DNA of 64,000 nucleotides, taken from assembly GCF_016065055.1 (NCBI RefSeq), contig NZ_CP065856.1, positions 2,975,836 to 3,039,835 of the forward strand. Reading direction: 5' to 3'. Shown here piece after piece: positions 45,410 to 62,259 of this stretch. Source of the DNA: Halosimplex litoreum (lineage in GTDB: Archaea; Halobacteriota; Halobacteria; Halobacteriales; Haloarculaceae). The notes under the pieces were generated by a model, which was given only the letters and a program-made list of their open reading frames with translations, did not search any database and had not been told where the DNA came from. Each line of letters begins with the position of its first letter. The first letter of the stretch is position 1. A program made the position numbers and the translations under genes.

Positions 45410-45880
45410 TTGGATTTGGGGCTGGCGGTGCGGTCGGCGTGCGCTGTCGAGCGGTGCGAGGCACACAGCGCCTCGAAGCGAGTAGCGTGGGAGCCGAGCG
45501 CCCACTGACCGTACGAGCGGGCCCCTGGCCCGCGAGCAGACGGCCCTGCCGTGAGCAGGCGGTGCGGAGAGCGCGGATATCCCGTCTGGTTCGAGAGGGC
45601 TCCGCTCTCTCGTCACCGAGCGAATCGGAGATTCGCGAGGTCTGCTCACGGGCGCTCCGCGCCCGTTCGCACGGTCCGAGGGACCGGCGGTCCCTCGCTG
45701 TCTGCGAGAGCTGTGCGCTCGCTCGATCCCGAACATCTCCGTTTTTCAGAGACAGCGACCGCGAGAGCGAGGACGACCGAAGGGAGCTCTCGTCAACGCG
45801 AACGGCGACTGCAGGGAGCCGTGAGCGAGCGCGTCGAGGGCTTTCGACACTTGTCGTCGAGTGCGGTCGCGGTTGCTCGA
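45410..45880 (+). repeat. Intergenic repeat element, copy B (long)
   Basis: Shares with copy A (inverted) an outer start containing GCGGTGCGGTCGGC, the block GTCGAGCGGTGCGAGGC, the GAGAGCGCGGA core and the CGAGCGCGTCGAGGGC end. It carries about 170 extra bases with more hairpins, such as GGTCCGAGGGACC. Copy B and copy A flank the htpX-gapA pair in opposite orientation. Confidence 0.72.
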
Positions 45881-45974
45881 CGTCCGCCCAAACCAACTCG
45901 AACAGAAACACCCACCCCACACGAGTCTCGGATCGGCCCACACGCTCATACCGTTCGGTCCCCACCTCACGCGC
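45881..45974. other. Upstream region of the pilin-like gene
   Basis: No gene. It contains AT-containing stretches around 45890-45910 that could carry the promoter of the pilin-like gene, but no clear TATA spacing was found. Confidence 0.35.
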
Positions 45975-46337
45975 ATGGACGGGGACGCGATGCTGAATCT
46001 GGTCGGGGCGGCCATCGTGGTCGCCGTCGTCGGGGGGTTCGTGGTGGTGGGGCTCAACATCGCGGGCGGGAACGGGGGGACCGACGCTCCGGAGGTGAAC
46101 TGGACGGTCGAGCGGGTCGACGATACCGCCGTCCGGATCACCCACGCCGGCGGCGAGCCGGTCCGAGCGGACGATCTGACGATACGCGTCGAGAGCTACC
46201 GTCGGGCGACCGACTGGAGCGACCCGGTGACCGAATCGGAGAGTACGGTCGTCCAGGCGAGCGAGGGATCGACGGTCCGGATCGTCTGGAGCCCGGGCCG
46301 CGGCGACGACGTGATTATGCACGGCGAACGGGTCTGA
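45975..46337 (+). CDS. Type IV pilin/archaellin N-terminal domain-like protein
   Basis: 120 residues from the ATG at 45975. A hydrophobic helix (LVGAAIVVAVVGGFVVVGLNIAGGNGG) near the N-terminus is followed by a beta-sandwich domain, VERVDDTAVRITHAGGEPVRADDLTIRVES, as in haloarchaeal pilin-like proteins. The type III signal cleavage motif is not clear, so export by the pilin route is probable but unproven. It is convergent with the CRTAC1-type gene. Confidence 0.7.
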   Translation: MDGDAMLNLVGAAIVVAVVGGFVVVGLNIAGGNGGTDAPEVNWTVERVDDTAVRITHAGGEPVRADDLTIRVESYRRATDWSDPVTESESTVVQASEGSTVRIVWSPGRGDDVIMHGERV

Positions 46338-46350
46338 ACGACCGCCTCGC

Positions 46351-48090
46351 TCAGTTCGCTGGTGCGGCGGAGAAGTTCGCGACCACGTCGACGCCGTCGG
46401 GACCGATCCGGTAGCGACGGTCGGCGTCGAGTTCGACGGTCCGCTCGGTCCCGTCGGGCCAGGTCACGTCGACGGTCGCCCTCTCGGCGTCGCCGAGCCC
46501 GATGTGAGTGACCGAGGACTCCTGAGAGATGAAGTCGCTCCGGGAGTTCTGCCAGACGGCCGTCTCCCGGCCGTCGACGGTGACCGTCGCGTTCGCGCCG
46601 ACGGCGACCGCACCGTTGCCGTCGACGATCTCGAACTGAGCGGCGCCGGCGGGGGCCGACCCGTTGGCTCGTCTTTCGGTGTCGGGCGACCGGACGGTGT
46701 TCTCGTAGACGGCGTAGGGCCCGTGGTAGTCGGCGATGATCACGTCGCGGTCGCCGTCGCGGTCGTAGTCGACAGTGACCATCCCGCGGCCGTCCTGCTC
46801 GGCGAACCCGCGGTCGGAGGCGTCGAGGCGGGTGAAGTTGTCGCCGTCCCGTTCCCAGACCATCGGGAGCGTAAAGACGGGGTCGGACTGGTTGAGTGCG
46901 ACGACGGTCTGGGTGGTGTGGAACAGGTCGCGGTCGCCATCGTTGTCGAGGTCGGTGACGCTAGCGGCCCACCCCCAGCCGCCCTCGCGGACGCCGTAGG
47001 CGTCGGCGCGGTCGACGAACTCGCCGTCGCCCTGATTGATGAGCATGGTGTTGCCCTTCGTACGGCCGGAGTGGATGACGTACTGGAGGAACCGCTTGAG
47101 CCGCTCGTAGCGGTCGGGCGAGAGCGTCTCGCGGGAGGCCGGGATATCGATATTGGTGACGAACACGTCGGGGCGGCCGTCGCGGTTGACGTCGTTGATC
47201 TCCGAGGCCATGCCGTTACGGGCGGTAGCGCCGCCCAGTTGGACCTGCTCGAAGGTCCCGTCACCCCGGTTGAGATAGACGGTATCGTTGTTGTAGTCGT
47301 TGGCGGCGTGGATGTCGGGGCGGCCGTCACCGGTCAGGTCGACGAAGCTGGCCGCGAGGGTCCAGCGGTCGCCCGTGATCCCCGTTCCGTCGACGCGTTC
47401 GAAGCGCCCCTCTCCGGATTCGCCCGTGTTCTCGAAGAGGACGTTGGGGTTGCCGTTGTCGCCAGCGACGGACTTGTTGGTCGAGAAATATCCCTCGGGG
47501 CGTTCGTCGGCCCAGTCACCGGACTGATAGACGAAGAGATCGCGGTCGCCGTCGCCGTCGTAGTCGGCGGCGGCCGCGCCGAGCGGGTGCGTGAAGTTAC
47601 CGAGGCCGACGTCGGTCCGTTCGAAGCTCCCCTCGTCGTTGTGGAAGGCGGCGGCGGGGCCGTCCTTGGCGAGCAGGAGCAGGTCGCGCCAGCCGTCGCC
47701 GTCGTAGTCGACGAAGGCGGCGCTCTTGTACTCCCGTTCGAGCCCGGAGAGCTCGCCCGTGCGCTCGAAGGCGCCGCCGGTGTTGCGAAAGAGGGCGGGG
47801 TGCTCGCCGCCGACGGCGAGCAGGTCTTCCCAGCCGTCGTTGTCGATATCGGCCACGAAGACGCCGTTGTTGCCGTTGCCGGCGGCGCCGGTGCCGGTGC
47901 CGTTGTACGCGAGCCCGGCCTCGGCGGTGGCGTCGACGAACCCGATCTCGGCGCTCGCTCCGTCGGTCTCGGCGCCGTCGAGCGACCCGGGCGCGGCGGC
48001 GCACCCGGAGACGACCAGCGTCAGCGCGACGGCGACGGTGAGGAGGGCCCGGTGGGCGGCGCCGCTGGTCCGTCGGTCCGAACCGGTCAT
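46351..48090 (-). CDS. CRTAC1-type FG-GAP/ASPIC-UnbV beta-propeller lipoprotein
   Basis: 579 residues. The signal ends at LVVSGC (lipobox). Seven or so FG-GAP/VCBS calcium-binding blocks follow: DIDNDGWEDLL, DYDGDGWRDLL, DYDGDGDRDLF, DLTGDGRPDI, DVNRDGRPDV, DLDNDGDRDLF and DYDRDGDRDVI. The C-terminal ASPIC/UnbV domain is VTHIGLGDAERATVDVTWPDG. It is a surface-anchored adhesion or scaffold protein. The start overlaps the upstream DyP-like gene by four bases, so it is co-translated with it. Confidence 0.9.
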   Translation of the reverse strand: MTGSDRRTSGAAHRALLTVAVALTLVVSGCAAAPGSLDGAETDGASAEIGFVDATAEAGLAYNGTGTGAAGNGNNGVFVADIDNDGWEDLLAVGGEHPALFRNTGGAFERTGELSGLEREYKSAAFVDYDGDGWRDLLLLAKDGPAAAFHNDEGSFERTDVGLGNFTHPLGAAAADYDGDGDRDLFVYQSGDWADERPEGYFSTNKSVAGDNGNPNVLFENTGESGEGRFERVDGTGITGDRWTLAASFVDLTGDGRPDIHAANDYNNDTVYLNRGDGTFEQVQLGGATARNGMASEINDVNRDGRPDVFVTNIDIPASRETLSPDRYERLKRFLQYVIHSGRTKGNTMLINQGDGEFVDRADAYGVREGGWGWAASVTDLDNDGDRDLFHTTQTVVALNQSDPVFTLPMVWERDGDNFTRLDASDRGFAEQDGRGMVTVDYDRDGDRDVIIADYHGPYAVYENTVRSPDTERRANGSAPAGAAQFEIVDGNGAVAVGANATVTVDGRETAVWQNSRSDFISQESSVTHIGLGDAERATVDVTWPDGTERTVELDADRRYRIGPDGVDVVANFSAAPAN

Positions 48091-49448
48091 TCGTCGATCC
48101 CTGTCGGGAGCGCGCGCTGGGAGCGGGGCGGCACGAGCAGCGTCTCGCGGTGGAGCGTCTCCAGGTAGTCGACGATGCCGTGGTCCTCGGCCGCCAGGTC
48201 GTCGTCGTACTCGTCGGTGTTCATCGCCTTGCGAGTCTCGACGAAGTCGTCGACGTGGCGCTGGAGGCCGCTGAAGTTGAACTCCGTCCCCTGGGCCGCG
48301 TCCGTGGCGACCCCCTCCGAACGCCGGAGGATCGTCGGGACGAAGTCGTCGTCGCGTGCGCGTGCGACTTTCTGCGTGTGTCCCACGCGGTCGTACTCCT
48401 CTGCGTACTCCTCGACGCTTCGGGCGTTTTCCTCGGTGATCCTGCTCTCGGCGCCGAGCTTCTCGCCGATCTCCCCGATCTCGTCGGTGTCGTGGGCGGG
48501 ACAGAACATCTCGGCGGCCCGCTCCTCGTGGGACTGGTCGTACCAGCGGTCCAGATCGATGCCGAGTCGGGAGATCGCCATCGTCGTCCCGCCGGCGAAC
48601 GGCCCCTCGCGGATGGTGATCCGGTCCTCGGAGGGCTGGCTGTCGCGGTAGCCGGACTTGAACCCCATCGACAGCGGCGCCGACTCCGGGATCGAGTCGT
48701 TGTCCAGCACGTCCGCCGGGATACCCTTGCCGACCATCCCGGTCCGCCGATCGGTCTTCGAGAAGACGCCCTCGAAGGTGTCGGTCACCTCGACGCCGTT
48801 TATCGTCTCGATCTCGCCGAACAGCGCTGCCTCGGCGGCCATGACGACCGAGCCGATGTCGCTGTTCATCAGCAGGACGGCGTCGAAGTCGTCGGCCTTG
48901 TCGGGGTCCTCGCCGACCCGGCGGAGCAGGTCTTCGGCCGGGACCAGCTGCTCGGGGACGCCGCCGGTCCGCTCGAAGTAGCTGGCCGAGTAGCCGAGCA
49001 TGAAGAGCAGCCCCTGCGTGAACGACGCCGAGGGGTTGCCGCCGGTCCCCCACTGGAAGGCCTCTTCGAGGGTCCGAAGGGTTCCCTCGACCTGTTCACG
49101 CTCGGCCTCGGTCGGCGGAGTCGACCCCTCGTAGGAGAGCCCGAGGATCAGCTGTTGTTGCGGGATGACGGTGTTGCCGTGGGCGTCGTGGACGACCGCG
49201 TAGTTCCAGGCGTGTTGGCGCTTCGACAGCGCGTCGGGGTTGCCCGTCGGAACCGACAGCTCGAACTCCGTGTCCGTCCCCGTCCGGGTTCCACCCGCCC
49301 CCTCCGGTTCGCTGGGACCGTCGGATTCGGTTCCCACCAGGTCCCGTTCCCGTTCCTGACACGCCGAGAGCGCGCTCGCCCCACCGATAGCGACGGCCGT
49401 CGCGACGAACTCGCGGCGGCCGATCCCACGCTCGTTGTCCGGTGACAT
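48087..49448 (-). CDS. DyP-peroxidase-like Tat lipoprotein with altered distal motif
   Basis: 453 residues from the ATG at 49448. The Tat motif is GRREFVATAVA, the lipobox Cys is Cys30. The body resembles dye-decolorizing (DyP) heme peroxidases: GFKSG at 262-266 in place of the GxxDG motif, GGTTMAISRLGIDLDRWY, a likely proximal His357 in GHTQKVAR, and ILRRSEGV followed by the late FNFSGLQRHVDDF block. The distal catalytic Asp is replaced by Ser265. I recall such haloarchaeal proteins as a DUF family. A variant heme enzyme or binder outside the cell is possible. Confidence 0.75.
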   Translation of the reverse strand: MSPDNERGIGRREFVATAVAIGGASALSACQERERDLVGTESDGPSEPEGAGGTRTGTDTEFELSVPTGNPDALSKRQHAWNYAVVHDAHGNTVIPQQQLILGLSYEGSTPPTEAEREQVEGTLRTLEEAFQWGTGGNPSASFTQGLLFMLGYSASYFERTGGVPEQLVPAEDLLRRVGEDPDKADDFDAVLLMNSDIGSVVMAAEAALFGEIETINGVEVTDTFEGVFSKTDRRTGMVGKGIPADVLDNDSIPESAPLSMGFKSGYRDSQPSEDRITIREGPFAGGTTMAISRLGIDLDRWYDQSHEERAAEMFCPAHDTDEIGEIGEKLGAESRITEENARSVEEYAEEYDRVGHTQKVARARDDDFVPTILRRSEGVATDAAQGTEFNFSGLQRHVDDFVETRKAMNTDEYDDDLAAEDHGIVDYLETLHRETLLVPPRSQRALPTGIDE

Positions 49449-50005: not shown

Positions 50006-51859
50006 ATGTCTGACAGTACCAATGAGTACAGCGATGTCGTAGACCGCCGGAAGTTCCTGACACTTGCAGGAGCGTCCGGTGCCGCGGCACTCGCAGGGTG
50101 TGGTAGCGGGGACGGGACACCGACCGACGGGTCCGGCTCCGACGGTAGTGACGGCTCGGACGGGTCCGACAGCAGCGACGGTTCGGACGGCTCGGACGGT
50201 TCGGACGGCTCGGACGGCGGCAGTACGAACGTCGTCGACCAGACTCACGCGAGTGGCCTCCAGGCCGACCCGACCAACCGCACGCTCAACCCGCACAACA
50301 CGCAGATCTCTTCGGAGCCCGCACGACGGCTGGCGTTCGACCGCTACGCCGCGTACTCCTTCGAGACCCAGGAGTTCCAGCTCGCGGCCCTGGACGAGTG
50401 GGAGTTCGACGGGGAGACGGTCACACTGACGTTCCGCGAGGATCTCTCGTGGTCCGACGGCAGCGACGTCACGACCGAAGACATCGACGTCCAGTTCCAG
50501 ATCCTCGAGAAGATCGGTAGCGCCATCTGGGGCTACGTCGAGAGCACCGAAGTCGTCGACGACTACACGTACCAGCTGAACCTCACGGGCCCGACCAACC
50601 CGGTCATGGTCAAACACCAGCTGGGTAACATGTGGATCGACACGCCGGCCGCGGCGTTCGAGCAGTTCGTCGACGCCGAGGCTACCGAAGTCCAGACCTG
50701 GAACTGGGAGGACAGCGACACCGAGGTCATCACGAGCGGCGCGTGGGCCTACGTCGACAAGAACCAGCAGCAGTGGAACTTCGAGCGCAACACCGAGTTC
50801 CACAGCATCGACAACGTCAACTTCTCGACCTACCGGTTCGACTCCTACCAGGAGGCCTCGGCCCCCCAGCAGGACTTCACCACCGGCGGCAAGCGCTTCG
50901 ACAGCGTCTGGAGCATGTTCGCCGCGCCGGAGACGGTCAACGCGTTCCAGGACTACGTCATGGAAGTCCAGACCATCCCGGCCAAGTGGGGCTACGGGAT
51001 GATCTTCAACCACGACGACCCGATCTTCGGCGACCGCGCGGTCCGCCAGGCGATCGCCCACGTCATCAACCGTGAGGAGCTCGTCGCGAACGCGGGTCCG
51101 CGCACGAAGTTCCCGGCCTCGGTCCCCTGTGGGATCGCCCCGCGCGACATCGAGGGCTGGCTCGGCGACGCCCAGAGCAACTTCGAGGACTACGGCGTCG
51201 GTTCGACCAACACCGAGGAGGCGACGCAGCTCCTCGAAGACGCCGGCTACTCGATGCAGAACGGCACGTGGACGAGCCCCGACGGCGAGCCCATCAGCGC
51301 CAACTACCTGACCCCCGGCGGGTGGACCGACTTCACGACGATGACCGAGACTATCGTCGACCGCCTCAACGAGTTCGGCTTCGATCTGTCGGTCGCGAGC
51401 CGACCGACCAGTGACTGGCAGGGCGCGTTCATCGAGAGCAACTTCAAGGTCGGGACGTTCTACTGGCTGCCCGGCCAGGCCCGGTCGTCGTTCCCGTACT
51501 TCCCGCTGCGCCACCAGCTCGCGCTGGCGGCGCTCAACGGCGGACACAACTACGACGCCGAGTCCGAGCAGACCATCCCGTCCATGAGCGGCGACGGCGA
51601 GATGACGATCAGCCCGCTGGCCAAGGTCGACGAGATCGCGACCAAGCCGACCAACGAGGAGGCGATGCCGATCGTCCAGGAGGCCGCCTGGCACAACAAC
51701 TACGACCTGCCGATGCTCTCGCTGGTCTCGAAGTTCGAGCAGTCGTGGGTCACGACCGACGAGTGGAACGTCTCCGTCGAGGAGGGCGACCCCGCTCGTG
51801 GTATCAAGTGGCCGCCGTTCTGGTGGCCGCGCCAGGGCAAGCTGTCTGCCCAGGAGTAA
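50006..51859 (+). CDS. Family-5 ABC transporter substrate-binding lipoprotein
   Basis: 617 residues. The Tat-lipo N-terminus is RRKFLTLAGASGAAALAGC. A striking Ser/Asp/Gly-rich linker follows (about residues 34-70, repeated GSD and SDG). The mature protein has ETVTLTFREDLSWSDGSDVT and the VRQAIAHVINREEL block near residue 350, typical of SBP_bac_5 (peptide/nickel/oligosaccharide) proteins. It captures the ligand outside the cell for the two permeases downstream. Its ligand is suggested by the neighbouring GH3 enzyme. Confidence 0.93.
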   Translation: MSDSTNEYSDVVDRRKFLTLAGASGAAALAGCGSGDGTPTDGSGSDGSDGSDGSDSSDGSDGSDGSDGSDGGSTNVVDQTHASGLQADPTNRTLNPHNTQISSEPARRLAFDRYAAYSFETQEFQLAALDEWEFDGETVTLTFREDLSWSDGSDVTTEDIDVQFQILEKIGSAIWGYVESTEVVDDYTYQLNLTGPTNPVMVKHQLGNMWIDTPAAAFEQFVDAEATEVQTWNWEDSDTEVITSGAWAYVDKNQQQWNFERNTEFHSIDNVNFSTYRFDSYQEASAPQQDFTTGGKRFDSVWSMFAAPETVNAFQDYVMEVQTIPAKWGYGMIFNHDDPIFGDRAVRQAIAHVINREELVANAGPRTKFPASVPCGIAPRDIEGWLGDAQSNFEDYGVGSTNTEEATQLLEDAGYSMQNGTWTSPDGEPISANYLTPGGWTDFTTMTETIVDRLNEFGFDLSVASRPTSDWQGAFIESNFKVGTFYWLPGQARSSFPYFPLRHQLALAALNGGHNYDAESEQTIPSMSGDGEMTISPLAKVDEIATKPTNEEAMPIVQEAAWHNNYDLPMLSLVSKFEQSWVTTDEWNVSVEEGDPARGIKWPPFWWPRQGKLSAQE

Positions 51860-51974: not shown

Positions 51975-52979
51975 ATGGTTAACTACTACGTGCGGCGGAC
52001 AGCACGGGTGTTCGTCACGATCTTCGGGGTCATGTCGCTCACCTTCGGGCTGATCCGTCTGCTTCCGGGAGGACCGTTCACGCAGTTGCGGACCCAGTTG
52101 CTCCGGCAGGGTATCCCACCCGAGCAGGTCAACCAGCAGATCGAGAACCTGCAGAACGTCCGGCCGGACGCGGGACTGGCGGAACAGTACGTCAACTACA
52201 TGATATCGGCGTTCCAGCTCGACCTTGGAACGTCGATCCAGTACAGTCGCCCCGTCACGGAGATGGTCGCCCAGGCGGCGCCGTGGACGATCTTCATCGT
52301 CGTCGTATCGACGATACTGATGTTCGTGGTCGGGATCCTCCTGGGCGCGATCCAGGCCTACTGGGAGGGGTCGAGGTTCGACACCATCGCCTCCTCGCTG
52401 TCGATCGTGGGCATGTCGATCCCGTTCTACGTGGCGGCGATCCTGCTCCTGCTGTTCATGTCGTACCGCTGGGGCCTGTTCCCGGCGTCGGGGACGGCGA
52501 ACCCCAACATCGAGAACCACTGGAGCCTGGGCTACGCTATCAGCGTGGCGATGCACGGGGCGCTCCCGATACTGTCGTACACGATCGTGGGGGTCGGCGG
52601 ACAGGCGCTGGCGATGCGTGGTAACAGCATCCAGGTGCTGGGCGAGGACTTCGTCGAGGTCGCCAGGCTGCGAGGCCTGTCGGACGGTCGGATCGCGACC
52701 CGGTACGTCGCGCGCAACGCGATCCTGCCGATGTACACCGGGTTCCTGCTGCTGCTCGGCTTCCGGCTGGGCGGCACGGTGATCCTGGAGCAGATATTCA
52801 ACTACCCGGGGCTGGGGCTGTACCTGTTGGACGCCGTTAACTCCAACGACTACCCGATGATGATGGGCACGTTCCTCGTCATCACGGTGGCACTGGTCAT
52901 CGGGGTGTACGTCGCCGACCTGACGTACAGCATGATCGACCCGCGGATCAGTTCGGGTGATTCCAGTGAAGCATACTGA
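51975..52979 (+). CDS. ABC permease, DppB type
   Basis: 334 residues with about six membrane helices. The N-terminus YYVRRTARVFVTIFGVMSLTFGLIRLLPGGP is the DppB start. The EAA motif is at EVARLRGLSDGRIATRYVARNAILP. The next permease begins inside its end (22-23 base overlap). A TGTAAATAC element 15 bases before the ATG may give an extra promoter. Confidence 0.93.
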   Translation: MVNYYVRRTARVFVTIFGVMSLTFGLIRLLPGGPFTQLRTQLLRQGIPPEQVNQQIENLQNVRPDAGLAEQYVNYMISAFQLDLGTSIQYSRPVTEMVAQAAPWTIFIVVVSTILMFVVGILLGAIQAYWEGSRFDTIASSLSIVGMSIPFYVAAILLLLFMSYRWGLFPASGTANPNIENHWSLGYAISVAMHGALPILSYTIVGVGGQALAMRGNSIQVLGEDFVEVARLRGLSDGRIATRYVARNAILPMYTGFLLLLGFRLGGTVILEQIFNYPGLGLYLLDAVNSNDYPMMMGTFLVITVALVIGVYVADLTYSMIDPRISSGDSSEAY

Positions 52980-53985
52980 ATCCGACGCCCCCACCGAGGG
53001 GCTCGACTGGCAGAGCGAGAGCACCGGCGCGGACATGACGAGGGGAGACCGGCTCCGGGAGTTCTACGAGCGGAGCGTCTACGAACCCGCGGTCGTCGCG
53101 TGGTCCGACATGCGGACGCGCGTCGGGCTCCTGATGCTCAGCGTCTACCTGGCGATCTCGGCGGTCGCCGTCCTGGGGCTGTGGCGCGAGCCGTCGTCGA
53201 GCCAGGCCCCCCGGCTGATCGGCATGTTCGAGAACTGGTCGTACCCGCTCGGGACGACCTCCGCGGGCGTCGATCTGACCGCCGAGCTGATCCACGCCAC
53301 GCCGGACATTCTGCTGATGGTGCTGGCCGGCGGCGTCTGGGCCACCGGCCTCGCCGTCATCGTCGGGACGCTCGCGGGGTACAAGGGCGGCCAGGTCGAC
53401 ACCGTGTTGATGTCTATCTCGGACTTCTTCATGGCGATCCCCGGCCTCCCGCTGGTGATCATCCTCGCGATCACGTTCAGCCCGGAGAACCCGATCTTCG
53501 TCGGTGTCGTGCTGACGATCAACTACTGGGCCGGGCTCGGTCGGTCGCTGCGCTCGCAGGTGCTGACCATCCGCGAGGACAGCTACGTCGAGGCCTCCCG
53601 AACGATGGGGACCTCCACGTTCCGGATCCTCCGGAAGGACGTGATCCCGAACCTGATGCCGTACGTGACGGTGAACTTCGTGTTCGCCGCCCGATACACC
53701 ATCTTCGCGTCGGTCGGGCTGTACTTCCTGGGCGTGTTGCCCTACAGCCAGCCGACCTGGGGTGTGACGCTGGCGCGCGCTCAGTCCAACGGCGCGCTGT
53801 TCGTCCCCGAGGCGGCCCACTGGCTGATCGCACCCATGGTCTTCATCGTCGGCCTGGCGCTGGCGCTGATCCTCATGGGACAGGGCCTCGACAGGGTGTT
53901 CAACCCGCGGGTCCGCACCCGGATGGCCGGGGAGTCCGAATCGACCGCGGAAGGCGACGAGACGACGACCAAGGGGATGATCTAG
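52957..53985 (+). CDS. ABC permease, DppC type
   Basis: 342 residues from the GTG at 52957; a second GTG at 52966 is equally possible. Five or six helices; the EAA loop is EDSYVEASRTMGTSTFRILRKDVIPNLMPY. It overlaps the DppB-type gene at its start and is followed without a gap by the ATPase gene. The longer soluble N-terminus (about 45 residues) is typical of this subfamily. Confidence 0.92.
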   Translation: MIPVKHTESDAPTEGLDWQSESTGADMTRGDRLREFYERSVYEPAVVAWSDMRTRVGLLMLSVYLAISAVAVLGLWREPSSSQAPRLIGMFENWSYPLGTTSAGVDLTAELIHATPDILLMVLAGGVWATGLAVIVGTLAGYKGGQVDTVLMSISDFFMAIPGLPLVIILAITFSPENPIFVGVVLTINYWAGLGRSLRSQVLTIREDSYVEASRTMGTSTFRILRKDVIPNLMPYVTVNFVFAARYTIFASVGLYFLGVLPYSQPTWGVTLARAQSNGALFVPEAAHWLIAPMVFIVGLALALILMGQGLDRVFNPRVRTRMAGESESTAEGDETTTKGMI

Positions 53986-56229
53986 ATGGCAACCGATCAA
54001 CGATCCGGTTCGAACGCGACGGTACAGTCCACCGTCGAGGACCCGATCGTCGAGGTCTCCAACGCGAAGGTGACCTTCGACGGTGGCGACACGTACGTCC
54101 TCGACGACGTGAGCCTCGACATCGAACGCGACGAGGTGCTGGGCATCGTCGGTGAGTCCGGCTCGGGCAAGTCGATGTTCGCCTCGGCCCTGCTCGATTC
54201 GATCCCCGACCCCGGAGTGCTCACCGGCGAGATCCTCTACCACTCTACCGACGGTCGGACGATCGACGTGCTCGAACAGAGCGACGAGGAACTCCGGCAG
54301 TTCCGCTGGGAGGAGATCTCGATGGTCTTCCAGGGGGCGATGTCCTCGTTCAACCCGACGATGGAGGTCGGGACGCACTTCGAGGAGACGCTGAAGGCTC
54401 ACGACGCCAACGTCGACGAGGGGATGGCCTTCGCCCGCGAGCTGCTCGAGGACCTGTACCTCGAACCGGACCGGGTCCTCGACTCCTATCCGCACGAGCT
54501 GTCGGGCGGCATGCAACAGCGCGCGCTGATCGCGCTGTCGCTGGTGCTCGAACCCGAAGTGCTCGTGATGGACGAGCCGACGGCGGCGCTGGACCTGCTC
54601 ATGCAGCGGTCGATCCTGATGCTGCTCAACGACCTGCAGCAGAGCTACGACCTGACGCTCGCGTTCATCACGCACGACCTGCCGCTGATCACGGCGCTGG
54701 CCGACCGGATGAGCATCATCTACGCGTTCCAGTTCGTCGAGGTCGGGACCCGCGACGGGATCATCGCCGACGCGGGCCACCCCTACACGAGAGCGCTGTT
54801 GAACGCGACGCCGAACCTCGACGCCCCGCTGTCGGAGATGCAGCCCATCGAGGGCGAGGGTCCCGCACCGGTCAACGTCCCGGAGGGGTGTAGCTTCCAC
54901 CCGCGGTGTCCGCTCGCGACCGAGGAGTGCGTCAGCGACGACCCGCCCCTCGAGAACGTCGGCGATGACCACCGCACGGCCTGTCACCACTGGGAAGAGG
55001 CTCGCGAGGAGATCACCCTCAACTACGGCGAGACCTCGGCCGACCCCGAGTTCGAGGCGAGCGCGGACCGCGACGTGACCGCACGGACCGACGAGGAACC
55101 CGTCCTCGGACTCGACGACGTCGAGGTCCACTTCGAGGAGGAACAGGGGCTGTTCGACATCTTCGGCGACGACCCGGACGTCGTCAAAGCGGTCGACGGT
55201 GTCGATCTCGACATCTACGAGAACGACGTGGTCGCGCTGCTTGGCGAGTCGGGCTGTGGGAAGACGACGCTGGGCAAGACCGCCATCGGCCTGCAGCGGC
55301 CGACCGGCGGCAGCGTCAAGTACCGCGGTCAGGACATCTGGGAGGCCAAGGACGGCGACGGGGACATCGACTACGACGAGATCCGCCAGGCCCTGCAGAT
55401 CATCCACCAGGACCCGGGGAGTTCGCTCAACCCGAACCGCCGGATCGTCGACATCCTCTCGGAGCCGCTGCACCACACGCACCCGAACATCAGTCCCAAC
55501 GAACGGCGGGACCGGATCTACTCGCTGCTCGACCGCGTGGGGATGAATCCGCCGGGTGACTTCGCCGACCGCTACCCCCACCAACTCTCCGGCGGGGAGA
55601 AACAGCGGGTCGCGCTGACCCGCGCACTGCTGATGAACCCCGACGCGATCCTCGCGGACGAGGCCATCAGTGCCGTCGACGTGAGCCTGCGCGTCGAGCT
55701 GATGGATCTGATGCTCGAACTGCAGAACGTGTTCGACACCTCGTTCCTGTTCATCAGCCACGACCTCTCGAACGCTCGGTACTTCACCGAGCACGGGGAC
55801 GGTCGGATCGCGGTGATGTACCTGGGCGAGATCGTCGAGGTCGGCACCGCCGAGCGGCTGATCCAGAACCCTCAGCACCCCTATACGAAGGTGTTGCGCT
55901 GGGCGACGCCGTCGCTCCAGCTCGACGCGGTGGAAGCGGGCGAGCCGCCGATGCGCTCGATCGACGTTCCGGACCCGGTCGACCCGCCGTCGGGCTGTCG
56001 GTTCCACACCCGGTGTCCCATCGCCAGGGAGGCCTGCACCGAAGAGCAGCCGCCGCTGTACGACGTGGAAGGCGGCGAAGGCAACGGCGCCGCCTGCTTC
56101 CGCGCGGACCCCGACCACGAGTACTGGGATAGCGAACCGCTCGAGGGCGCCGAGCGTGTCGGGCCCGACGAGGAGTTCGACACCAGCAACGTCACGGGCG
56201 AGTTCGGCGCCGAGAGCGCCAGCGACTGA
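53986..56229 (+). CDS. Fused double ATPase of a family-5 ABC transporter (DppD-DppF fusion)
   Basis: 747 residues in one frame. The first half has Walker A GESGSGKS (56-63), signature LSGGMQQR and Walker B VLVMDEPT, plus a Cys-rich oligo_HPY end with CSFHPRC. The second half has Walker A GESGCGKT (420-427), signature LSGGEKQR, Walker B AILADEA and its own oligo_HPY end CRFHTRC. Usual transporters encode these as two genes; here they are one chain. It begins directly after the DppC-type stop. Confidence 0.95.
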   Translation: MATDQRSGSNATVQSTVEDPIVEVSNAKVTFDGGDTYVLDDVSLDIERDEVLGIVGESGSGKSMFASALLDSIPDPGVLTGEILYHSTDGRTIDVLEQSDEELRQFRWEEISMVFQGAMSSFNPTMEVGTHFEETLKAHDANVDEGMAFARELLEDLYLEPDRVLDSYPHELSGGMQQRALIALSLVLEPEVLVMDEPTAALDLLMQRSILMLLNDLQQSYDLTLAFITHDLPLITALADRMSIIYAFQFVEVGTRDGIIADAGHPYTRALLNATPNLDAPLSEMQPIEGEGPAPVNVPEGCSFHPRCPLATEECVSDDPPLENVGDDHRTACHHWEEAREEITLNYGETSADPEFEASADRDVTARTDEEPVLGLDDVEVHFEEEQGLFDIFGDDPDVVKAVDGVDLDIYENDVVALLGESGCGKTTLGKTAIGLQRPTGGSVKYRGQDIWEAKDGDGDIDYDEIRQALQIIHQDPGSSLNPNRRIVDILSEPLHHTHPNISPNERRDRIYSLLDRVGMNPPGDFADRYPHQLSGGEKQRVALTRALLMNPDAILADEAISAVDVSLRVELMDLMLELQNVFDTSFLFISHDLSNARYFTEHGDGRIAVMYLGEIVEVGTAERLIQNPQHPYTKVLRWATPSLQLDAVEAGEPPMRSIDVPDPVDPPSGCRFHTRCPIAREACTEEQPPLYDVEGGEGNGAACFRADPDHEYWDSEPLEGAERVGPDEEFDTSNVTGEFGAESASD

Positions 56230-56723: not shown

Positions 56724-57629
56724 TCAGGCGTCGTCGAGGAACGCGGCGGTCTCCTCGGCGAGGTCGGCGACGTCGTCGTCGGTCTCCACGCGAGCGCGGT
56801 CCTCGAGCGGTCCGACAGCGCGGTCGTCACCCAGGTAGCCGAGGGCGCGGATGGCGCGGGCCCGAACGGTGTCGTTGGTGTGGTTGAGACAGGCGACCAG
56901 CGCGTCGTAGGCCTCGGCGGCCGCGTCGGGGTCGGCCTGGGCGATCTCGGAGACGGCGTCGATGGCCGCGCCGACGACCGTCACGTCCGGCGTGTCGAAC
57001 AGTCCGACGAGCGCGTCGAGGTGGTCGGCGGCGGTCTCCGGGTCGCCCTCGGCGGCGGCCGTGACCACGTTGGCGAGTCGGCCCTGTGACTGGACCAGCA
57101 ACTGGTGTTCCTGCTTGTCGTGTTCGAGCATGGTCTGGCGGGCCTCCTCGTCGTCGACCATGTCGATCCCCTCGGTGGTCTCGTAGGCGGGCGAGCGCCC
57201 GTCGAGCACCGCGGCGATGCGGTCGAGGTGCGGTGTCACCGCCTCGGGCTCGTTCAACACGACCTGGACGACGATCTGCGTCCCCAGCAGTTCCAGCGAG
57301 TTGAACTCCCGCTCGATCAATCCGAAGACCGCGGGCACCGAGTCGGCGAGGTCCTCGGGGAACTCTCGGGCGACACCCAGCAGCGCGGTCCCGGCCTGCT
57401 GTGCGACCGCGTTGCGGTCGTCGTCGAGCAGCGGGAGCAGGTCGTCGACGAACGGGCGTACCGTCGACGGGTCCCGTTCGGCGAGTTGCGACAGCGCCTG
57501 GGCGGCCTCGTTTCGCCTGATGTTCGTCTCCGATGTGAGCGCCTCCCGAATCTGGGCGCGGTCTTCGTCGTCGAGTGCTTCGGACCCGGTGTCGACCCCC
57601 TCCAGCGGTGCGGATTCCTCGTCGGTCAT
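56724..57629 (-). CDS. HEAT-repeat protein
   Basis: 301 residues from the ATG at 57629. Helical repeats are visible: NIRRNEAAQALSQLAERDP, NAVAQQAGTALLGVA, DVTVVGAAIDAVSEIAQADPDAAAEAY and DTVRARAIRALGYLGDDRA. Such proteins are protein-protein adaptors. It is divergent from the GH3 gene (133 bases) and may be unrelated to it. Confidence 0.82.
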   Translation of the reverse strand: MTDEESAPLEGVDTGSEALDDEDRAQIREALTSETNIRRNEAAQALSQLAERDPSTVRPFVDDLLPLLDDDRNAVAQQAGTALLGVAREFPEDLADSVPAVFGLIEREFNSLELLGTQIVVQVVLNEPEAVTPHLDRIAAVLDGRSPAYETTEGIDMVDDEEARQTMLEHDKQEHQLLVQSQGRLANVVTAAAEGDPETAADHLDALVGLFDTPDVTVVGAAIDAVSEIAQADPDAAAEAYDALVACLNHTNDTVRARAIRALGYLGDDRAVGPLEDRARVETDDDVADLAEETAAFLDDA

Positions 57630-57730
57630 ACCCGAGTCCAGCCCGTCGAACGACAAATACGTGTGGATATCGATACCACGGACGACCGTTCGGCTCACTC
57701 GGACGACTCGCACGGATATTCACCTCGCAA

Positions 57731-57738
57731 TGTTTATG
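57731..57738 (+). promoter_or_regulatory. TATA element of the GH3 gene
   Basis: TGTTTATG ends 24 bases before the ATG at 57763. Its spacing points to a leaderless transcript and settles the start over upstream in-frame codons. Confidence 0.6.
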
Positions 57739-57762
57739 TGGACGTCGGAAATCCATCCGAAC

Positions 57763-59991
57763 ATGCAATCCAGCGACGCGGATCCCGAGTATCAGCGCCC
57801 GGATCTCCCGGTATCGCGGCGGGTCTCGGATCTGCTCGATCGCATGACGGTCGAAGAGAAGGCCGGTCAGCTAGTCGGAACGTGGGCCGGGCAGATGCAC
57901 CGAGCGGTCGACGTCGAGGAAGTCAAAGATCTGGTGCGCGAGCAGCACCTCGGCTGTGCGGCGCCCTTTGGCTGGGCCGGGTCGACGGGGACGGAAGTCG
58001 ACGAGATCGTCGACATCGTCAACGACCTCCAGGCGGTCGCGACCGAGGAGACGCGGCTCGGGATCCCCCTCTTTTTCAACGTCGACGCGGTCCACGGCCA
58101 CGCATACGTCGCCGGATCGGCGGTGTTCCCGAACGGGCTGGGTGCGGCGGCGACGTGGGACCCCGAGCTGGTCGAGGCCGGTGCGCGCGTCACCGCGACG
58201 GAAGTGGCGGCGACCGGTGCCCACCAGAACTACGGCCCGACCTGCGACGTGGGTCGGGACCCCCGCTGGGGGCGCGTCTTCGAGACCTTCGGCGAGAGCC
58301 CACGGCTGGTCACCGAGATGGCCGCCGCGAAGGTTCGGGGCTACCAGGGCGAGGGGATCGAGGCCGACGACACCGTCGTCGCGACGGCGAAACACTTCCC
58401 GGCCTACAGCGAGCCCGAACGCGGCGAGGACGCCGCGCCGGTCGACGTCTCGGAGTACAAACTCCGCAACACGTTCGTCCCGCCGTTCGAAGCGGCGCTC
58501 GCCGAGGGCGTCGAGTCGGTGATGCCGTGTTACAACTCCATCAACGGCGAACCCGTCCACGGCTCCGAACGCTGGCTCACGGACCTGCTCCGGAGCGATC
58601 TCGGTTTCGACGGCACCATCGTCTCGGACTGGGGCGGTGTCCGCCACCTCACCGACGACCACAAGACCGCCGCGGATCTCCGCGAGGCGACTTACGACGC
58701 CCGGACGGCGGGCCTCGACGTGGCCTCGGTCGGCAACGACCTCGAAGTCGAGGAGCTGGTCGACCTGGTCGAGTCGGGCGACCTGGCCGAGTCGGTGCTC
58801 GATTCGAGCGTCGAGCGCGTGCTCGAACGCAAGTTCCGGATGGGGCTGTTCGAGGACCCCTACGTCGAGAAAGACGAAGCCCTGGAGACGGTCGGGTCCG
58901 ACGACCACCAGGCGGCCGCCCTAGAGACAGCCCGCGAGGCGATGACGCTGCTGAAAAACGACGATTGCCTCCCGCTCTCGGGCGACGAGGACGTGTTCGT
59001 CGGCGGGCCCAACGCCGACGACCTGGTGAGCCAGGTCGGCGGCTGGTCGGTCGAGGACGAGGACCACGTCGACGGGACGACGATCGTCGAGGAGATCCGC
59101 GCGCACGTCGACGGTGACGTGACCCACGAGCAGGGGGCCACTCACAACGAGACGCTGGACGTGGACGCCGCGGCCGAGCAGGCCGCCGAGGCCGACGTGG
59201 CCGTGCTCGCGCTCGGTGAAGGGTGGTACCTCCACGAGTTCGGTGCGGGCGACCCCCGCACCGAGACGGGCGAGTTCCCCACGCGCGAGCGACTCGCGCT
59301 GGGCGAGGCTCAGCAGGAACTCGTCGAAGCGGTCGCCGAGACGGGCACGCCCGTCGTCGGCGTCCTCGTCACCGGCCGCCCGCTTGCCGTCGAGCATCTC
59401 GACGAGCGGGCCGCGGCCGTCCTGATGGCCTACTTCCCCGGCACGATGGGTGGGAAAGCCGTCGCCGAGACGCTGGTGGGCGAGAACGACCCCAGTGGCC
59501 GGCTGGCGGTGACCGTCCCCCGCTCGGGGACGCAGGTCGACCTCCATCACGACCACCTCCACCAGCCCCGTCCGATCGGCGACCACGAGCATCCCGATTC
59601 CTACGACCCCCTCTACGAGTTCGGCCACGGACTCTCGTACACCGAGTTCGAGACGGGTGACCTTTCGGTCGACGAGGACGTCGTCGGCCCGGGCGAGACG
59701 GTCGAACTCGACGTCACGGTCGAGAACGTCGGTGACCGTCGCGGGACCGAGGTGGTCCAGGCGTACAGCACGACCGAATCGAAGACGCTCGTGATGCCCG
59801 AGCGGCGCCTCCAGGCGTTCGAGCGGGTCGAGTTGGACGCCGGCGAGTCCGCGAGTGTCGCCCTCGAAGTCCCCGTCGAGAATCTGGGCGTCTACGCGCC
59901 CGGTGACGGCCACCGTGTCGAGGCCGGCGACTACGACCTCGTGGTCGACGGCGAGTCCCTCACGGTGACCGTCGACGGCGACTACCTCTAG
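57763..59991 (+). CDS. Glycoside hydrolase family 3 beta-glycosidase
   Basis: 742 residues with no signal peptide. The GH3 N-domain has the KHFPAY motif, the nucleophile Asp289 in IVSDWGG, and blocks NYGPTCDVGRDPRWGRVFETFGE. The second domain has the AMTLLKNDDCLPL start, and the fibronectin-like C-domain begins near YEFGHGLSYTEF. It hydrolyses beta-linked gluco- or xylo-oligosaccharides in the cytoplasm. The nearby family-5 ABC importer would supply the sugar, as such transporters do for cello-oligosaccharides in other prokaryotes. Confidence 0.94.
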   Translation: MQSSDADPEYQRPDLPVSRRVSDLLDRMTVEEKAGQLVGTWAGQMHRAVDVEEVKDLVREQHLGCAAPFGWAGSTGTEVDEIVDIVNDLQAVATEETRLGIPLFFNVDAVHGHAYVAGSAVFPNGLGAAATWDPELVEAGARVTATEVAATGAHQNYGPTCDVGRDPRWGRVFETFGESPRLVTEMAAAKVRGYQGEGIEADDTVVATAKHFPAYSEPERGEDAAPVDVSEYKLRNTFVPPFEAALAEGVESVMPCYNSINGEPVHGSERWLTDLLRSDLGFDGTIVSDWGGVRHLTDDHKTAADLREATYDARTAGLDVASVGNDLEVEELVDLVESGDLAESVLDSSVERVLERKFRMGLFEDPYVEKDEALETVGSDDHQAAALETAREAMTLLKNDDCLPLSGDEDVFVGGPNADDLVSQVGGWSVEDEDHVDGTTIVEEIRAHVDGDVTHEQGATHNETLDVDAAAEQAAEADVAVLALGEGWYLHEFGAGDPRTETGEFPTRERLALGEAQQELVEAVAETGTPVVGVLVTGRPLAVEHLDERAAAVLMAYFPGTMGGKAVAETLVGENDPSGRLAVTVPRSGTQVDLHHDHLHQPRPIGDHEHPDSYDPLYEFGHGLSYTEFETGDLSVDEDVVGPGETVELDVTVENVGDRRGTEVVQAYSTTESKTLVMPERRLQAFERVELDAGESASVALEVPVENLGVYAPGDGHRVEAGDYDLVVDGESLTVTVDGDYL

Positions 59992-60080: not shown

Positions 60081-61139
60081 TCAGCGGGACGCTCGACCCG
60101 CCCGTCCGGCGGCGACCAGCACGGCGACGGCGACCGCCAGCGCGGTGAGCGCGACGCCGAAGCCGGCGCCCGACCCGGCGGTGCCGTCGGTCGCGCCGGA
60201 GCCGACACCGGTCGCTCCACCGGGCGACGTGCTCGTCGGAGCGGTCCCGGCGGTTCCGTCGCCGTCGGCGACTGGTCCACCCGCCTGTGTGGCTGTGGCC
60301 GACGCTTCGGGAGCGGTCGTCACGGTCGGCGTGTTGATCAGGGGACCGTCGTCCGTGGCGTTCCCGGCCGCGACGGTCAGATACGTCCCGACCGGTCGGT
60401 CGCCGGCGGTGATCGGCGGGTCGGACGGGTCGAAGACGCCGTCGCCGCCGTCGCGGTGGGCGACGACGCGGACCCGAAAGTCGCGGTCGCGCTCGGCGAC
60501 GAACGACTCGTTCAGCGCGACGGTGACGTTTCGGTGGACGCCCGCGGCCAGCGACCGGGACCCGATGCTGGAGTTCCGCCCGACCGGGGACACCGCGACG
60601 TGGCCGGGCGTCGAGAGGTCGACCCGGCGGACCGTGAGCGTCCCGTCGGCGACCGGCTGGGCTTCGAACCGCATGCCGAGGACCCTGGTCACCGAATCGC
60701 TCTTTCGGACCGTGATCTGCGTCCGCGCGGCCGGACTGAGCCGCGCGGCCGACGCGTCGGTCTCGGGGTCGAACGTCTCGTCGCCGTCGACGTCGGTGTG
60801 CAAGACCGCCCAGACCGTTCGGGTGCCCGACCACGACCGCCAGACCGAGTCGTCGACCCGGACCGGCACGCTCGTCCGGTAGGTCAGGTCCGGCGTCCGG
60901 CCGACGTACTCGTGTCCGATCGGGGCCCCGGGACGCCCGCCGTCGTCAGCGTGGAGGACGACGAACCCGGGCCGCAGCGCCGACACCGCCTCGACGACGA
61001 CGGTCCCGTCGTCGGTCACCTGTGAGTCGGCCGCGACGTGGTCGCCGTGGGCTCCGACGGTCGCGACCGCCAGCGGCGTCGTGAGTGCCAGCGCCAGCGC
61101 GAGGACGACGGCGACCCGGCGCGAAGCGGTTCCAGACAT
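60081..61139 (-). CDS. Secreted surface protein with tandem halophilic beta domains
   Basis: 352 residues. A signal segment (about 9-30) is followed by two related beta domains, the first starting SQVTDDGTVVVEAVSALRPGFVVLH and ending with HTDVDGDETFDPETD, the second with ITVRKSDSV and DGVFDPSDPPITAGDRPVGTYLTV. A Thr/Gly/Ala-rich linker and a C-terminal helix near 330-345 with GRAGRASR resemble a PGF-CTERM-like anchor, though the PGF triplet itself is absent. Its stop and the next gene's stop-start spacing suggest co-transcription. Function unknown. Confidence 0.78.
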   Translation of the reverse strand: MSGTASRRVAVVLALALALTTPLAVATVGAHGDHVAADSQVTDDGTVVVEAVSALRPGFVVLHADDGGRPGAPIGHEYVGRTPDLTYRTSVPVRVDDSVWRSWSGTRTVWAVLHTDVDGDETFDPETDASAARLSPAARTQITVRKSDSVTRVLGMRFEAQPVADGTLTVRRVDLSTPGHVAVSPVGRNSSIGSRSLAAGVHRNVTVALNESFVAERDRDFRVRVVAHRDGGDGVFDPSDPPITAGDRPVGTYLTVAAGNATDDGPLINTPTVTTAPEASATATQAGGPVADGDGTAGTAPTSTSPGGATGVGSGATDGTAGSGAGFGVALTALAVAVAVLVAAGRAGRASR

Positions 61140-61140
61140 G

Positions 61141-62259
61141 TCAGGCGGTGATCGTCGCCGGTTCCATCCTGAGGAACGCCCGCTCGTACCCCTCGTGGCG
61201 GGCCAATTGCGGAGGCGTCCCCACTCTGAGGGTCACTTCGTCACCGGACTGGACGGGTTCGGGCAGCGCCGCGCCGTAGTGGTGGCCGAGTTCGGGGTCG
61301 AGCGTGGGCTCGAGCGGCCCCTCGAAGCCGGTCTCGCCGTCGCGGGCCACCGAGGCGGACAGCGCCATCGCGGGGAGGACCAGCCGATTGAACGGCGTCC
61401 GCGCGGAGACGGCGAGGTACGGTCCGCCGTCGGTGAACCGGCCGGCGTCGGCCGCGGGGACCTGTGTGGTGACGAGTTTGGCGTCGCCGCTGCGGCCGGT
61501 ACCGAGGACGCGCCCGGGGAGGGCGGCCGGTTCGGGCGCGCGGGGCTGGGGCACGTCGCCCATCTCCATCGGGCGGAGCGCGCCACGCTGGCCCGCCTGA
61601 TCCAGCTGTTCGGTCGTGAGCCGTTCGCGCAGCCGTTTTCCCCACTCGAACTCGACGGCCGCAGTCGCACCGTCATCGAAGCGACCCTCGAAGGCGCCGG
61701 TCGTGCGCGCGCTCACGCCGCCGACGCTGAGCCGCGCGGCGTACGTCCCGTCGCCGTCGAGCGGGAAGTTCGCGCCGTAGTGAAAGCCCATCCGCTGGGA
61801 GAGCATCCGGTAGATGACCTCCTGGGTGACCAGGTCGCCGTCGCGGGTGATCTCGACCGAGAGGTTCGAGTCCGGGAGTACCGTCTGGGTCTCGGGGTCC
61901 CAGACCGTGGCCATCAGGTGGACGTCGTCGCCCTCCTCGATCTCGGTGACCGAGCGCTCGTCGAGGTTGACGGTCCAGAAGCGGTGGGGGACCGCGACCA
62001 TCAGTGCGAAGCGGTAGTCGCCGGCCCTCGCCGTCCCGGGCATCACCATCGCCTCGCGGAACGACTGGACGTAGACGCCGCCGGGTCCGTCCGGGGTCGA
62101 CGTGACCGTCGAATCGTCGGCCGGGGACCGTGTCGGTTGGGGTGTCGATCCGGTGGCGGGGCCAGCGGTGTCGGTCGCGTCGCCGCCGTCGCCGAGACAG
62201 CCGGCGAGGCCGACCGCCGCGGCGCCCGTCGCGGAGTGGAGGAATCTCCGTCGGTTCAT
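61141..62259 (-). CDS. Tat lipoprotein, Tp34/P19-like periplasmic metal-binding type
   Basis: 372 residues. The Tat motif is MNRRRFLHSATGAAAVGLAGC with lipobox Cys21. The mature part contains RFALMVAVPHRFWTVNL, DVHLMATVWDPETQTVLPDSNL and MGFHYGANFPLDGDGTYAARL, resembling iron-uptake P19/Tp34 lipoproteins (the HYGANF block). A second domain follows after about residue 210. It ends one base before the next gene on the minus strand begins, so the two are an operon. Iron or copper binding is inference. Confidence 0.72.
   Translation of the reverse strand: MNRRRFLHSATGAAAVGLAGCLGDGGDATDTAGPATGSTPQPTRSPADDSTVTSTPDGPGGVYVQSFREAMVMPGTARAGDYRFALMVAVPHRFWTVNLDERSVTEIEEGDDVHLMATVWDPETQTVLPDSNLSVEITRDGDLVTQEVIYRMLSQRMGFHYGANFPLDGDGTYAARLSVGGVSARTTGAFEGRFDDGATAAVEFEWGKRLRERLTTEQLDQAGQRGALRPMEMGDVPQPRAPEPAALPGRVLGTGRSGDAKLVTTQVPAADAGRFTDGGPYLAVSARTPFNRLVLPAMALSASVARDGETGFEGPLEPTLDPELGHHYGAALPEPVQSGDEVTLRVGTPPQLARHEGYERAFLRMEPATITA

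Follow-up and report, generated by a model that had tools for sequence, protein, structure and literature searches.

In DyP peroxidases, the aspartate of the GxxDG motif serves as the acid-base residue. DyP active sites hold Asp almost exclusively and rarely Glu (PMC7611857). A Streptomyces plasmid DyP (L186:391-1299) has FTEG, with Glu where GxxDG has its Asp. Compound I formation is driven by Arg and not by Asp in DtpB, and A-type DyPs with an Asp-to-Ala substitution still form Compound I, slowly (PMC8463360). The exported DyPs EfeB of E. coli and FepB of S. aureus bind heme, display low peroxidase activity and promote the release of heme iron, and DppABCDF acts as a permease for heme and dipeptides (PMC3577903). 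Literature searches found no paper under the name DUF7405, the family considered here, and none on the function of archaeal CRTAC1 proteins.

The window, a stretch of 64,000 nucleotides from Halosimplex litoreum, encodes an exported putative relative of these enzymes together with a propeller lipoprotein (Table 1). A preliminary description of this DNA had noticed GFKSG instead of GxxDG, a likely proximal His357, Tat and lipobox signals and a four-base overlap with the gene of a calcium-type propeller lipoprotein; all these signatures are found in the translation, and the overlap, correctly placed, is a 4-nt ATGA. The product of the first gene is matched by PF24152 (DUF7405) with E 4e-115 and 384.9 bits (residues 96-441 on profile positions 1-347; the Pfam gathering score, used as membership threshold, is 27.1 bits), carries the twin arginines RR at positions 11-12 and possesses a lipobox LSAC whose last residue is Cys30. 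It matches DUF7405 over the full length and is, as other members, a Tat lipoprotein with the same invariant residues, but stands in a CRTAC1-linked branch, while the best-scoring members of the family adjoin DUF7350. Three DUF7405 copies are present in the genome.

Table 1. Location of the gene pair, of its sequence motifs and of the adjacent importer and glycosidase genes in the window.
Feature	Position	Strand	Evidence or remark
Beta-propeller lipoprotein of the CRTAC1 family, FG-GAP and UnbV/ASPIC domains, 579 aa	46351..48090	-	Pfam, PDB, Foldseek
ATGA overlap, 4 nt	48087..48090	-	Sequence; DUF7405 stop (48089-48087) and propeller ATG (48090-48088)
DUF7405 family protein (DyP superfamily), Tat lipoprotein, 453 aa	48087..49448	-	PF24152, hhalign, translation
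Arg375-Arg376, in LRR	48321..48326	-	Arg375 opposite EfeB distal Arg347
His357, presumed proximal heme ligand, in GHTQK	48378..48380	-	81/81 members; alignment with EfeB His329 aligner-dependent
Glu274, invariant	48627..48629	-	81/81 members
GFKSG, codons 262-266, distal motif position, replaces GxxDG	48651..48665	-	Ser265 opposite EfeB Asp235
SBP_bac_5 family-5 substrate-binding lipoprotein of divergent ABC importer	50006..51859	+	Recurs at many pair loci
Two importer permeases (51975-52979 and 52957-53985)	51975..53985	+	BPD_transp_1 (first); ORF and position (second)
Fused double ATPase, Opp/Dpp type	53986..56229	+	ABC_tran and oligo_HPY, two stretches each
GH3 glycoside hydrolase, after importer	57217..59991	+	Glyco_hydro_3 5e-70

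The DyP-likeness proposed in the preliminary description is borne out by profile comparison, which supports placing DUF7405 in the DyP superfamily of dimeric alpha+beta barrel proteins. A 34-member DUF7405 profile compared by hhalign with 13 bacterial DyPs (EfeB, YfeX and others, from public records) scored 98.8% (E 6.7e-17) over 307 columns, while eight shuffled controls and one reversed control reached 0.2% at most. Pfam Dyp_perox_C matches 9 of the 34 members (best 4e-6), several haloarchaeal DUF7405 proteins exceed the Pfam cut-off for this domain, and public annotation labels some members 'Dyp-type peroxidase'. Single-sequence searches with the window protein gave no match in the PDB, an empty NCBIfam result and no DyP Pfam match; a profile search returned the DyP 5jxu weakly (E 0.06), and its top match, BURRH, is spurious, a repeat-derived alignment to the signal peptide. 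AlphaFold2, run on the DUF7405 domain with a five-sequence alignment only, reached a pLDDT of 31.5, and since this model is unusable, sequence is the basis for the proposed double ferredoxin-like fold and heme pocket. The low confidence of this model and the empty single-sequence searches are consistent with a superficial resemblance, in which case the protein would be of another kind and bind no heme and no peroxide, yet this seems very improbable in view of the hhalign score relative to its null controls, of the members above the Dyp_perox_C cut-off and of the matching motif positions.

These positions were compared residue by residue with EfeB. In both MAFFT modes Ser265 stands opposite Asp235, where a DyP-type peroxidase has the distal Asp of GxxDG, and Arg375 stands opposite Arg347; the distal Arg is present in 81 of 81 aligned members. 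EfeB His329 is placed opposite His357 in localpair mode and opposite K360, three residues away, in genafpair mode, and hhalign also shifts the histidine register by three relative to His357/EfeB His329. The distance between His357 and Arg375 is 18 residues, equal to that between His329 and Arg347 in EfeB. DUF7405 and the EfeB or A-type DyPs have in common Tat export, a motif, GFKxG in DUF7405, in the same place and, for the window protein, a distal Arg at this spacing from the presumed proximal His, but DUF7405 differs by its lipobox, by Ser or Ala instead of the GxxDG Asp in essentially all members and, in the branch of the window, by the propeller partner.

The missing Asp is a fixed trait of DUF7405, a catalogued family of unknown function which is present in 261 of 292 sampled haloarchaeal genomes. 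In an alignment of 41 members, later enlarged to 81, the position is occupied by Ser in 55 members, by Ala in 24, by Gly and Thr in one member each, and by Asp or Glu in none of the 81. The distal motif had been described as mutated in the window gene; the Asp is indeed absent, but 'mutated' is misleading because no aligned DUF7405 member has Asp there. The reading as one mutated copy is thereby ruled out, and the gene is, with respect to its Asp state, an ordinary DUF7405 member and no mutated DyP. Among ten Dyp_perox_C matches in a 116-genome sample of the class, no Asp-bearing DyP was found, those checked being of the DUF7405 type with Ser or Ala. The 81 members, a very divergent set, all keep His357, Lys360, Arg375, Arg376 and Glu274 as well as the Tat twin arginines and the lipobox Cys. 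No relatives were found in viral contigs. At G114:C1:1559155-1563507 (L138, L140, L143, L145), additional fragments of DUF7405 genes, one with in-frame stops, suggest duplication and decay.

The absence of the acid-base Asp from all 81 members, set against DyP sites with almost exclusively Asp and rare Glu (PMC7611857), and the partnership with a binding-type propeller are what could be expected of a pseudoenzyme, which would retain the DyP fold, with or without heme, and assist the propeller structurally or by binding a ligand, but would lack meaningful redox activity. Such a role is unlikely, as the residues kept invariant in divergent members would be needless for a plain scaffold and as DtpB shows that Compound I formation can depend on an Arg (PMC8463360). 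The acid-base function might also have moved to another residue, for example Arg375 or Glu274, a candidate substitute carboxylate which probably lies in the same loop as GFKSG, in a heme protein of DyP fold that would act with the propeller on polysaccharides or their phenolic companions. This reading is clearly improbable; if true, the two proteins would be a surface redox module with which haloarchaea complement their glycoside hydrolases oxidatively.

The partner protein shows the domain composition of the CRTAC1 family (FG-GAP_3, 4e-42; UnbV_ASPIC, 3e-11), and its translation contains a lipobox VSGC (Cys30) and seven DxDxDG-like repeats that resemble calcium blades. The sole PDB match by sequence is 9etn (CRTAC1; E 2e-13), and for a structure model (pLDDT 66, pTM 0.67) Foldseek ranks mouse CRTAC1 9etn first (E 5e-17). 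Integrins make up most of the next matches, which also include the sugar-binding fungal lectins of Psathyrella and Agrocybe. While sequence, top fold match and calcium-blade motifs are thus shared with the UnbV/ASPIC FG-GAP propellers such as CRTAC1, the version of the window is an archaeal lipoprotein coupled by its gene to a DyP relative. Just past the propeller gene, a small ORF (45861-46337, + strand) encodes a pilin-like hydrophobic N-terminus.

When the same pair was sought in other haloarchaea, as the preliminary description had proposed, it was found adjacent in 47 further loci, so that, counting the window, DUF7405 and the propeller are neighbours at all 48 pair loci, and this conservation shows that the pairing in the window is not due to chance. 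The 47 fetched loci comprise 36 tandem DUF7405-propeller, nine convergent and two divergent arrangements; the association therefore survives rearrangement. Within the Haloarculaceae, the window type of DUF7405 occurs in 24 of 146 genomes and the propeller in the same 24, and the co-occurrence holds class-wide in several families; CRTAC1 propellers without a nearby DUF7405 are found in a few genomes (L171-L176). The propeller-linked DUF7405 proteins form one branch (SH-aLRT 99), a group of 50 rows that includes one row with a flank too short for the propeller check. Conserved adjacency and co-occurrence together strongly support a functional pairing of the two proteins.

Divergently from the pair runs an ABC importer which shares SBP_bac_5, BPD_transp_1 and oligo_HPY ATPase domains with the Opp/Dpp family, but has its two ATPase domains fused in a single 747-aa protein and a GH3 gene behind. 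Components of an importer (binding protein of family 5 or 6, permease or ATPase) are located within 6.5 kb at 40 of 48 pair loci versus 0 of 17 other DUF7405 loci, and a GH3 or GH81 glycosidase at 18 of 48 versus 0 of 17, whereas DUF7350 shows the opposite distribution (0 of 48 versus 12 of 17); the Fisher p-values for these neighbours, 2e-3 to 6e-10, are descriptive only, as the genomes are related and independence is overstated. In 15 of the 24 Haloarculaceae pair genomes a GH3 gene is found no more than 12 kb from the pair, compared with about 0.5 expected by position (distances read by hand). Recurrent layouts have the importer upstream and divergent, the importer downstream, GH3 directly after the propeller or GH3 after the importer. 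On one haloarchaeal plasmid the pair is found among GH3, epimerase, Gfo/Idh and mandelate-racemase-like genes and on another beside a GH81 enzyme; some pair loci are without importer and without glycosidase, and a HEAT-repeat protein is near seven of 48. In one genus (L099-L103, L095) the pair is in place and adjoins a binding protein of family 6 (Peripla_BP_6), not of family 5. A glycosidase link for all DUF7405 proteins is ruled out at 6.5 kb by the other loci; in one genus, other DUF7405 copies and a GH3 gene are separated by about 15-18 kb.

The family of this importer also carries peptides, nickel and heme; in archaea and thermophiles, oligosaccharides are among the possible cargoes of Opp-family importers. 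An EfeB-like function in iron or heme acquisition has to be weighed, in which the DUF7405 protein would bind extracellular heme or porphyrin and help to extract or hand over the iron, with the Dpp-type importer carrying heme or another metal ligand. Precedents are EfeB, FepB and DppABCDF (PMC3577903). In addition, several of the DUF7350 neighbours of other DUF7405 proteins carry an Iron_transport domain, the DUF7350 protein of Haloarcula marismortui is annotated 'iron transporter', and the importer binding protein of the window is weakly similar to nickel and metal-opine binders besides oligopeptide binders. However, an FTR1/EfeU permease was not found in the genome of the window, which rules out a complete EfeUOB system, and no EfeU or EfeO is among the identified neighbours of window-type DUF7405. 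The branch of the window has glycosidases in the place of DUF7350, and several pair loci possess a family-6 instead of a family-5 binding protein. On balance, iron or heme acquisition is the chief rival explanation, though a rather unlikely one. In the window, a DUF7350 gene stands side by side with a DUF7282 gene about 12 kb from the pair (60081-62259, - strand); although DUF7350 is the usual partner of other DUF7405 proteins, this copy has no adjoining DUF7405.

The reading we tentatively favour, at somewhat less than even confidence, is that of a lipid-anchored exported DyP relative which binds heme via His357, is paired with the propeller and is accessory to sugar acquisition. The DUF7405 protein would be exported and anchored by lipid at the cell surface, where heme b would most likely be bound through His357. 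Its peroxide chemistry, if any, may be slow or Arg-driven, since the Asp is lost as a fixed trait while the distal Arg is kept, in analogy to DtpB and the Asp-to-Ala A-type DyPs. The calcium-propeller lipoprotein, the constant gene partner, would be made together with it at the cell surface and could bind a substrate or act as a scaffold, possibly in a physical complex, and the heme protein beside it might serve redox conditioning or peroxide handling. Because pair loci hold an Opp/Dpp-type or family-6 importer and GH3/GH81 glycosidases, the pair would most likely be accessory to the acquisition of sugars from beta-glucan-like material; the idea that the importer carries a sugar is conjecture drawn from the GH3/GH81 genes. 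Against this reading speak the pair loci beyond the 18 of 48 with a glycosidase within 6.5 kb, those with neither importer nor glycosidase, and the disagreement of the aligners on the His register.

While the family itself is already catalogued as DUF7405, the loss of Asp throughout the family, the coupling of one branch to CRTAC1 and the setting in glycan loci are new here, and this glycan-uptake context was absent from the preliminary description. Carried by nearly every haloarchaeon sampled, DUF7405 offers natural Asp-less DyPs for the question whether Asp or Arg drives Compound I formation (PMC8463360). The fixed CRTAC1 link of one branch in glycan-import loci is a first functional lead for DUF7405 and, likewise, for the archaeal CRTAC1 proteins.
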